From contig NZ_OBDR01000001.1 in assembly GCF_900215215.1 (NCBI RefSeq), positions 310,001 through 374,000 of the forward strand: DNA of 64,000 bases. The letters are read 5' to 3'. The first letter of the stretch is position 1. Every line of letters starts with the position of its first letter. The notes beneath the pieces are model-generated. The model saw nothing but the letters and a program-made list of their open reading frames with translations. It was not told where the DNA came from and did not search any database. The position numbers and the translations under genes are program-made. Below, piece by piece: positions 5,642 through 58,237 of the stretch. The stretch comes from Methanohalophilus euhalobius. GTDB lineage: Archaea; Halobacteriota; Methanosarcinia; Methanosarcinales; Methanosarcinaceae.

Positions 5642-6430
5642 TTAGTCCTTTTTTGGGACTAACTCTGAATTTTTTTCATACCATTCATAGAGCTTGGTTG
5701 CCCATTCGATGGCTTCTTTTTCTGTACCCATAAGGTAACTGTTGTCATAACGACAGTTATTCAACATAAGGGATAAAAGGAAATATTGGTCAGAAGCAAT
5801 AATTAAGGAGGGCTTAACTTCTCCTTTGTAGATCAATATCCGGGAATTGTCTGAATTTTTGAGTATCCGGGTTGCTTCAGGATAATCATTTTTCATTTTT
5901 TCAAATATCGGTTCTGTCATTATCAACGATAAGTTTGCTCCTTTTGAGGCCATTTCAGAGGCACACGGAGGCTATGCCGGATGATAGACTGCAATAAAAG
6001 CTTTAATCCAGATAGACGCTTTTGTAAGTGGTTTTATTTTTGCGAAAGGATCGAATGCATCAGTAAGTGAAGGTACGATATATTCACTATTATTTAATTC
6101 TCCGATACGGTGCAATAATTCTTTTGGAATAGGAGTTAAATCATGTTCATTTAAATAATCGAAATGATGTTCAAGTACATCAAATGTTTTAAAGACCTCC
6201 TGGAGCATGTGCACCAGCAATATGCCAATTCTGGTTAATGAATACGTACTATTTTCCTGAACTATGAGGCCATTTTCTTTCAATATTTTTATTTGGGGAA
6301 GAATTGAAGGCGAAGTTTCATCAAGAATCTCTTTTATTTCATCAATATCCTTCTTGCCTTCCATAAGCAGGAGAAGAAGGCGCTTACGTTTTTCGGAAAA
6401 ACATGTAATGTCAATAAGTGAGCGCCTCAT
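5642..6430 (-). CDS. DUF1724/FilR1-type winged-helix regulator with an in-frame TAG
   Basis: Archaeal transcription regulator with an N-terminal winged helix (about residues 1-70, EKRKRLLLLLMEGKKDIDE) and a C-terminal DUF1724-like domain, common in methanosarcinal genomes. Codon 153 is TAG (5972-5974). The same frame continues for six codons into the segment starting MASKGANLSLIMTE and runs to TAA at 5642. Read through, the product is 262 residues, the family's usual size. Read as a stop, the ligand domain is cut in the middle. The residue replaced aligns with Tyr in the HPDYP-type motif I recall for the family (here HPA-TAG-PP). Pyrrolysine or a nonsense allele are the alternatives. Confidence 0.82.
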
Positions 6431-6545: not shown

Positions 6546-6890
6546 TCATTTTAGTATCTCTACTGTATCCCTGTCATAGTACAGCTTCTTTTCAAATATT
6601 GTTATTGAAGGCGGTTTTATGGAAGGCCTGACATCAGTTGTGAGAAAAAGATATCCTATGACATGAGTGTAGTACTCAAGCCCTTTATGATACCGGTTTA
6701 GTCTCTCGATTTTCCTTCCTGCATAAGGATTACAAACCATTGAAAGACAAGACAGATTCCTGTAAATATCCCGTATATAGAGTACAATTCTTATAAGAAT
6801 GGAATAAATGACCCTGTAAAATAATTCAAGTATGCTGGCTTTCTTCTCATAAGAGAAAAGTTGTTTCACATTTGGATTTCGGATGTCCAT
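6546..6890 (-). CDS. Hypothetical protein, 114 residues
   Basis: I do not recognise this protein. It starts MDIRNPNVKQLFSYEKK, has a hydrophobic helix-like stretch (YRVIYSILIRIVLYI) around residues 25-39 and a basic middle with a single Cys pair. A weak ribosome binding site (GAGG) and a TATA-like run at about 6913-6920 lie upstream. There is no overlap with neighbours, and its codon use looks ordinary for this AT-rich stretch. It could be a small peripheral membrane protein. Confidence 0.5.
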   Translation of the reverse strand: MDIRNPNVKQLFSYEKKASILELFYRVIYSILIRIVLYIRDIYRNLSCLSMVCNPYAGRKIERLNRYHKGLEYYTHVIGYLFLTTDVRPSIKPPSITIFEKKLYYDRDTVEILK

Positions 6891-44975: not shown

Positions 44976-45519
44976 ATGTTGGGACTTCTTGACTTTCTTC
45001 CTTATATTCCAAAAGCCGTACGTGTAAGCACTATAAGGTTGCAGACGAAACTAAAGCACAGCGTTTTGTGAAAGACATCAGACAAAGATATCCCGACGCC
45101 AACCATAATGTATTTGCATACCTATCACAGGTGACGGAAACCTGATTATGAAATATGATGATGACGGAGAACCTTCAGTAAGTTCTGGTAAACCTGTTTT
45201 CAAAGTCCTTGAACTGAAGGGGCTTGATAATGTTGTGGTTATAATCAGCCGGTATTTTGGTGGAATCAAACTTGGCTTTGGCGGACTATCCCGTGCTTAC
45301 AAACAAACCGCTATTGAGGCTATAGACGATGCCGGGGTTGTTGAGCAGAGGCCCACAAAGGAAATGAAAATCATAGTGGACTATGGGAATATTCAGTTTG
45401 TAAAACATATGCTTGAAAATTGTGCCACAATCCTGAATGAACACTATTCTGATATAGTGGAAATAGTAGTTGCTGTTGCAGAAGACAAAATTGGTGAATT
45501 GGAAAAACTGATTAATTAG
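44976..45519 (+). pseudogene. Frameshifted YigZ/IMPACT-family gene
   Basis: Three consecutive frames together give a YigZ-like protein. They read MLGLLDFLPYIPKAV from 44976, then KVADETKAQRFVKDIRQRYP to NVFAY at 45121, then ITGDGNLIMKYDDDGEPS onward to 45519. A single-base loss near 45122 turns the expected codon after AY into two bases. An earlier lesion lies around 45015-45030. The conserved core ISRYFGGIKLGFGGLSRAY is intact. The final codon is TAG, the only terminal TAG found in the window. Without it the frame would run 11 codons to TAA 45552. Confidence 0.8.
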
Positions 45520-45973
45520 AAAATTCCAGACACTTAGATAACCCGACTTTAAAAGAAAATAAATTCACCCATAAAAAGGAAATACAAACTCTTATTTGAA
45601 GAACAATAATTACTAAATTCCTCTATAATAGATCTACAACCAACATTTGGCAAATAATCCAGCACCCAGGATTATGTTATAATATCCATACAATTTTTTT
45701 ACTGCTATGTATACATGCATACGATGCTATCATCGTATATGAATAGCAGGATGAGTAGACAAAGGCTATCCGCCTGTTGGGATCAAACGCAGAGATGAAA
45801 TATTCAAATTGCGTTTCTCATTAAATTTTTTATATGAATGCCAATTTAACGTAAAATATATAAACTATGTGTAATATAGTATTTATATAGAAGTGGTGGT
45901 ATCGAAGAATAAAATATTCCAATTACCGTAGGGTATGACTCTTCGACAAATGATATGAAAGGAAGGATTAAAG
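45520..45973. other. Intergenic region upstream of the HTH gene
   Basis: 454 nt, AT-rich. It holds a perfect hairpin ATACGATG/CATCGTAT with loop CTAT at 45719-45738, and two TATA-like stretches (AAAATATATAAAC near 45854 and TTTATATAG near 45882) that probably drive the HTH gene. No gene was found on either strand. Confidence 0.6.
45902..45946 (+). promoter_or_regulatory. Leader hairpin of the HTH gene
   Basis: TCGAAGA (45902-45908) pairs with TCTTCGA (45940-45946) across a 31-nt loop, in the untranslated leader 28 nt before the ATG. It could regulate translation. This is structural inference only. Confidence 0.4.
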
Positions 45974-56725: not shown

Positions 56726-58237
56726 TTAACTTTTAAGTTTTTCTTCAATTGCTTCTGTGACGGTTTTCAGGGCCTTTATACGGGCATATTTTTTATCGTT
56801 AGCTTCTACAATTGTCCATGGGGCATAAGTAGTGCTTGTTTTTTCAAGCATCTCATCTACAGCTTCACGATAGGCATCCCAATTTTCACGGTTTCGCCAA
56901 TCCTCTGGAGTGATTTTCCATTGTTTGTGAGGTGTTTCACTCCTTTTCTGGAACCTTTCAAACTGGGTATCCTAATCTATATGCAACCAGAATTTGACAA
57001 CTACAGCATTCCAGTCAGTAAGCATCGCTTCAAATTCATTAATCTCCCTATAAGCGCGTTTCCACTCGTTTTCAGTGCATAGCTGTTCTACCCGTTCTAC
57101 CATGACCCTGCCATACCAGCTACGGTCAAAAATAGCAATTCTACCGGCAGGTGGAATTTCCTTTAAGAATCTCCAGAGATAATGATGTGAGATTTCATAA
57201 TCATTGGGAGCGCCAATGGGAATTACCGAATAGAGACGTGGATTGAGCCGGCGCGCAAGCCTTCGGATATTACCCCCTTTACCTGATGCATCCCAGCCTT
57301 CATAAACAATAACCACAGGGATCTGACGCTTGAACAATTCATATTGCAAATGCCTCAAACGTTCCTGATACTCTTTTTTCTTACTTTTATATTCTTTTTT
57401 ATCGATCGTTTTATTCATATCAATGCGTGCCAGTATAGAAGTTTTAAGGGATGGTATTCCCGGTAAATCCTCTTTAGGGAAAAGGTCCACAGTAGTTTCA
57501 GTAACGGATTTATGGTCTACCTCTTTGAGTTTATCCTCTATTGCATTTATAAAAGCCGTCATTATTTTGACAGTGGCAAAATTCCTGTTATTTGATTCCA
57601 CAATTGTCCAGGGAGCCCTGAAAGAATCCGTGTTTTCCAGGATTTTTTCTACGGTGTGAAGATAGGCTTCATATTCACTTGCATAATCCACTTCATCTTC
57701 CCCCACAATAAAAAGATCCCCATTATTCTTTTCCAGTTCTTTAAACCGTTGTTGCTGTTTCTCTTTGCTTATGTGGAGGAAGAACTTGATTATTAGGTAA
57801 CCATCGTCTGCAAGTTGCCTCTCAAAACTCCTGATTCCCTGCAGGCATCTTTCAAGTCCTTTTCCATTATTTTTTTCAATATGTTCTATAATCGCTCGCC
57901 TGTACCAGCTGCGATCGAAGATTGCTACCTGGCCGCGGGCAGGAACTTTGGTCCAGAAACGCCACAAAAGAGGTCGGAGTTTTTCCTCATCTGTGGGACT
58001 GGTAGTTGTATGGAAACGGAAACCCCTGGGGTCCATGGGAAGAATGAAACGATTTATTATATCACTCATACCCGAAGCATGCCAGCCTTCAAAGACAACA
58101 ATTATGGGAACCTGCATTTTCCAGCTTTTGCGCTGTAATTCCCCCATTTTGATCTCAAGTTTATCGACTAAATCCTTGTACTCCTTATCGTCTATTCTTT
58201 TTGAGAGATCAACTTTTTCCAGCATTGAAAACCCCAT
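56726..58237 (-). CDS. ppk2: Two-domain polyphosphate kinase 2 with an in-frame TAG
   Basis: 503 residues if codon 422 (TAG, 56972-56974) is read. The N-terminal PPK2 domain has a degenerate Walker A (FEGWHASGMSD); the C-terminal domain is complete (YEGWDASGKGGNIRR, FDRSWYGRVMVERVE). After the TAG the same frame continues 81 codons with the essential KQWKITPEDWRNRENW lid and APWTIVEANDKKYARIKA, ending in TAA. Truncation at 421 residues would remove these catalytic-core parts. It uses polyphosphate to phosphorylate nucleotides. It is convergent with ppx, with no gap. Confidence 0.92.

Follow-up and report, generated by a model that had tools for sequence, protein, structure and literature searches.

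A Methanohalophilus gene for a putative winged-helix regulator is interrupted by a single in-frame TAG, which we read, with a probability of about two in three, as a recent sense-to-TAG change where UAG is substantially decoded as pyrrolysine, drifting near-neutrally in a weakly constrained regulator. The gene lies on the minus strand at 5642–6430 of the window (the whole 64,000-nucleotide stretch analysed), and its open reading frame, Pfam match and homologues identify a 262-residue readthrough frame with a winged-helix DNA-binding N-terminus and a FilR1_middle (formerly DUF1724) domain. The frame begins with ATG at 6430, meets the TAG at 5974–5972, contains a further ATG at 5953 and ends with TAA at 5644–5642, giving 152 + 1 (TAG) + 6 + 103 = 262 residues; the six codons between the TAG and ATG 5953 are CCT CCG TGT GCC TCT GAA. 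These coordinates agree with an earlier note on this DNA, which had placed two apparent proteins of 152 and 103 residues in one frame, joined to 262 residues with the TAG as codon 153.

The Pfam search matched FilR1_middle (PF08350) at residues 126–253 (E = 2.5e-26; 92.7 bits against a cut-off of 27), a match that covers the TAG, whereas the helix-turn-helix (HTH) gave sub-cut-off Pfam matches only (PF01022, 21.8 vs 22) and drew additional support from the structure model. With a domain above the Pfam cut-off and an N-terminal HTH, the protein belongs to the FilR1_middle (PF08350) winged-helix regulators; the winged-helix/DUF1724 identity proposed earlier was confirmed by the match across the TAG, and for the HTH by the weaker matches together with the model. 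Pfam detected no REC domain in the regulator and FilR1_middle forms its C-terminal end, so it is not a FilR1 response regulator proper. The AlphaFold2 model of the readthrough protein had a mean pLDDT of 91.8, and its effector domain fold resembled TrmBL2/TrmB and phospholipase-D-like domains. The upstream part (5972–6430, minus strand; 152 codons) comprises the winged helix, linker helices and the first strand of the FilR1 domain, and the downstream part (5642–5971, minus strand; codons 154–262 plus TAA) comprises the bulk of that domain. Residue 153 is modelled at the start of a helix, right after the effector domain's first strand (141–146), and a 152-residue product would be without nearly all of the effector domain. 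The TAG column in 23 homologues is mostly the Tyr of HP-x-Y-P, although some homologues deviate with C, S, I, V or an N-like residue, in keeping with the earlier alignment of the TAG with the aromatic residue of an HP(D)YP-type motif.

Besides the TAG, no further stop and no frameshift was found in the whole frame of the regulator gene. The codon-usage score was +18.9 for the N part and +11.7 for the C part, and was negative in the remaining five frames; the downstream frame, described as intact in the earlier note, thus showed no other lesion and a positive score. The orthologue is uninterrupted in five Methanohalophilus congeners (one genome per species) at 91–95% identity, indicating that the interrupted frame is a real gene and not a chance one. 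Codon 153 (5972–5974, minus strand) is TAT (Tyr) in four of the five congeners and TGT (Cys) in the fifth, M. profundi. The TAG was present in one genome only, and among 112 genomes of the family it was found in no other close match of the regulator. Since the relatives carry a sense codon at this position, the TAG appears to be a recent change in its own lineage. Reinitiation at ATG 5953 was considered and rejected, as no Shine-Dalgarno-like sequence lies upstream and the orthologues conserve this Met as a normal part of the protein. A 114-residue ORF of unknown function adjoins the regulator (window 6546–6890, minus strand); its homologues also adjoin the regulator in the congeners G003 and G007, and a TAA-interrupted copy is located at C17:16919.

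In a branch codon model, the whole-gene omega on the regulator's own branch was 0.41 (p = 0.20 against the background of 0.21; p = 0.088 against 1). The own-branch omega of codons 157–262 was 0.25, equal to the background (p = 0.046 against 1), on a branch where the TAG may be recent. Three own-specific replacements fall within five codons at the TAG (codons 152–156; 5963–5977, minus strand), namely E152A, Y153TAG and F/L156C. The pairwise dN/dS between the regulator and its G003 orthologue was 0.33, within the top 4% among 529 orthologues (median 0.12), and beyond the genus the closest homologue (G019, 47% identity) contains TGA and TAA. The regulator is fast-evolving and clade-specific and seems weakly constrained; the selection figures neither prove nor exclude regulator function once the TAG arose. 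The earlier note had named a sense codon in relatives combined with relaxed selection downstream as evidence against its reading; the sense codon is indeed present in the relatives, and the downstream omega does not differ from background, with the TAG perhaps recent.

The genome encodes, in one cluster, tRNA-Pyl(CUA) followed by pylS, pylB, pylC and pylD, of which we take the last two to be pylC and pylD from their position and the known cassette order. It also carries two mtmB copies with in-frame TAG. The host has what a pyrrolysine-containing protein needs (tRNA-Pyl, PylRS and PylBCD), and the regulator's TAG lies within a conserved domain with homologous continuation. MS/MS has identified pyrrolysine in the MttB protein of M. 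portucalensis (PMC4928046), and an amber reporter in M. acetivorans gave 20–30% full-length product (PMC2933860). The earlier overall reading is partly supported, by one gene in one frame, the motif alignment, the open downstream frame and an organism with pyrrolysine machinery, whereas the sense codon that relatives carry at the TAG site is half of what the note had named as refuting it.

An altered release factor was rejected because aRF1, represented by a single full-length match per genome above the curated cut-off, resembles that of the relatives and, like theirs, keeps the NIKS motif. A search for a PYLIS-like structure 3′ of the regulator TAG found no stem-loop beyond chance (z = 0.36); PYLIS has been reported to be unnecessary (PMC9499178). 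Amber is reported to be seldom used as an end in Methanosarcinaceae (PMC3941956). The pylB gene, its domain being complete by then, apparently ends at TAG, which is also the case in certain other Methanosarcinaceae (PMC2933860), and for several other ORFs TAG likewise seems to be the end, any extension beyond it being short or absent. Because pylB seems to end in this way, UAG termination probably persists to some extent, and UAG is probably an ambiguous codon here; a strict code is not proven.

A TAG audit covered stretches of three genomes: 1.07 Mb out of 1.94 Mb in the own genome, 0.8 Mb in G003 and 0.4 Mb in G007. TAG was the end of 24/1029 coding-scored ORFs in the own genome (~2%), 9/784 in G003 and 5/385 in G007, and many of these apparent ends run on into homologous sequence. 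TAG-containing ORFs were screened by coding-score and homology filters, the unfiltered scan being dominated by antisense frames. The genes continuing past a TAG encode MtmB (two copies), MtbB, RubisCO, aconitase, polyphosphate:AMP phosphotransferase and a GNAT acetyltransferase. Nonsense changes inside homologue-backed, non-mobile genes comprised 11 TAG, three TGA and two TAA in a manual gene count that left out mtmB, transposases, start-codon artefacts and further hits in a gene already counted; several TAA/TGA matches lay ahead of the true ATG and were dismissed as such artefacts. The TAG share expected from codon usage was ~36%, and the excess had p ~0.008 (0.003 to 0.03 across the assumptions tried). 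Neither decay nor sequencing error by itself predicts such a bias among nonsense changes. Genes that have truly decayed, carrying mixed stops or frameshifts, also occur in the own genome, and a multihaem-cytochrome-like gene with TAG and TGA (G000:C18:386397 and 386682) is likely a true pseudogene.

The second readthrough gene in the window (56726–58237, minus strand) encodes a polyphosphate:AMP phosphotransferase (PPK2, TIGR03708), with a lone TAG at codon 422 (56972–56974) where three congeners have CAG (Gln). The RubisCO large subunit (G000:C18:207417-208841; L045:7417-8841) has TAG at codon 371 (GAA in G003 and G007), and the aconitase (G000:C11:14984-17761; L069, L123) at codon 374, where five congeners have CAG; in each of these three genes the lone TAG lies inside a sequence near-identical to that of relatives. 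The aconitase of G002 has a separate TAG at codon 150 (L130). The GNAT acetyltransferase (G000:C18:219529-220077; L201, also L202-L205) keeps TAG at codon 101 in five Methanohalophilus species, and its sequence downstream of the TAG is under purifying selection (omega 0.27, p = 1.3e-4 against 1), whereas the M. profundi copy (L206) has decayed. This gene is the best sequence evidence in the genus for useful UAG reading outside methyltransferases. In addition, a DEAD/Cas3-like helicase frame of 740 residues has TAG at codon 155 (G000:C17:14288-16510; L075), and a plus-strand gene at about 45005–45549 of the window, whose homologue in G003 is 199 residues long, shows a frameshift near 45121 and two TAGs close to its end at 45517–45519 and 45535–45537 (E189, K195).

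Taken together, the Methanohalophilus sense codon that the congeners retain (four with Tyr, one with Cys) would have changed recently to TAG, with tRNA-Pyl/PylRS decoding UAG in competition with aRF1. Some ribosomes would insert pyrrolysine at residue 153 and complete the 262-residue regulator, and the remaining ribosomes would stop and release a 152-residue fragment lacking most of the effector domain. We infer that the full-length regulator is made; decoding at codon 153, the residue inserted, its efficiency and the function of the product are likewise presumed. Because many TAG codons occur in unrelated genes of the genus, the change looks like tolerated, near-neutral drift rather than a dedicated recoding device.

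The main rival to a tolerated pyrrolysine codon is that the regulator is becoming a pseudogene, with a TAG that mostly terminates, a useless 152-residue fragment and a downstream frame open only through recency. The clade restriction of the regulator and the TGA and TAA of its closest extra-genus homologue fit this account, as do the dN/dS in the top 4%, the cluster of replacements at the TAG with the own-branch omega of 0.41, and the decayed genes with mixed stops elsewhere in the genome. We nevertheless consider it unlikely, if a serious contender, since the regulator has no other lesion, the downstream omega equals the background and differs from 1 (p = 0.046), TAG-reading machinery is present, and decay alone does not predict a nonsense bias to TAG.

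That the true codon is TAT or TAC, with the TAG arising from an error of sequencing or assembly or as a variant of one isolate, seems very improbable. The TAG is known from a single genome, a draft in 27 contigs, three differences fall within 11 bases, and another gene of the same assembly has a frameshift; however, the rest of the regulator gene is clean, and errors would not prefer TAG over TGA and TAA across genes. We give slightly less credence still to an adaptive pyrrolysine sensor, in which the full-length regulator would form only with plentiful charged tRNA-Pyl during methylamine growth, coupling regulation to pyrrolysine supply. The effector domain would then be conditional on that supply, a translational switch through which methylamine metabolism would act on transcription, and E152A and F/L156C could be compensating changes. 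The domain family does include the methanogenesis regulator FilR1 (PMC3991700), and the TAG is modelled at a helix start just past the effector domain's first strand, but the TAG occurs in one species without conservation, and comparable TAGs in unrelated enzymes indicate that drift suffices.

The regulator, itself under weak constraint, thus probably tolerates its TAG as a pyrrolysine codon of recent origin, and the genus-wide TAG pattern holds more interest than this one site. Discussions of pyrrolysine usually centre on three methyltransferases. The genes compared here suggest that in Methanohalophilus TAG has spread into ordinary enzymes and regulators, held by selection in one case (GNAT, five species). 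Each of these TAG-interrupted proteins is split or cut short by standard gene calling, and the genus offers a natural test of the passage from ambiguous to sense codon.

Among known systems, FilR1 of Methanosaeta harundinacea (PF08350; PMC3991700) shares with the regulator the ArsR-related DNA-binding and FilR1_middle domains, but additionally carries REC at its C-terminus and is paired with a cognate kinase, whereas the regulator is without REC. Thg1 (tRNA-His guanylyltransferase) of Methanosarcina acetivorans, described as a neutral pyrrolysine case (Heinemann et al. 2009, as covered in PMC2933860), likewise has a species-specific in-frame TAG and a sense codon in relatives, and likewise lies outside the methyltransferases in a methanogen with pyl genes. 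For Thg1, experiment established that the TAG can be translated as pyrrolysine and that activity does not require it, whereas the case for the regulator is built on sequence. In mtmB, mtbB and mttB an in-frame TAG is read through in the same cell, and pyrrolysine in MttB of the genus has been proven by MS/MS (PMC4928046). There, the TAG position is conserved per methyltransferase class and pyrrolysine works in methyl transfer, whereas in the regulator a single species has TAG in place of a Tyr that is not invariant. Archaea with a 'Pyl code' (Kivenson et al. 2025) reportedly read essentially all TAG as pyrrolysine. TAG ends are very rare in them and in-frame TAG occurs in many unrelated proteins, as in Methanohalophilus; unlike them, however, Methanohalophilus has a pylB and a few other genes that seem to end at TAG.
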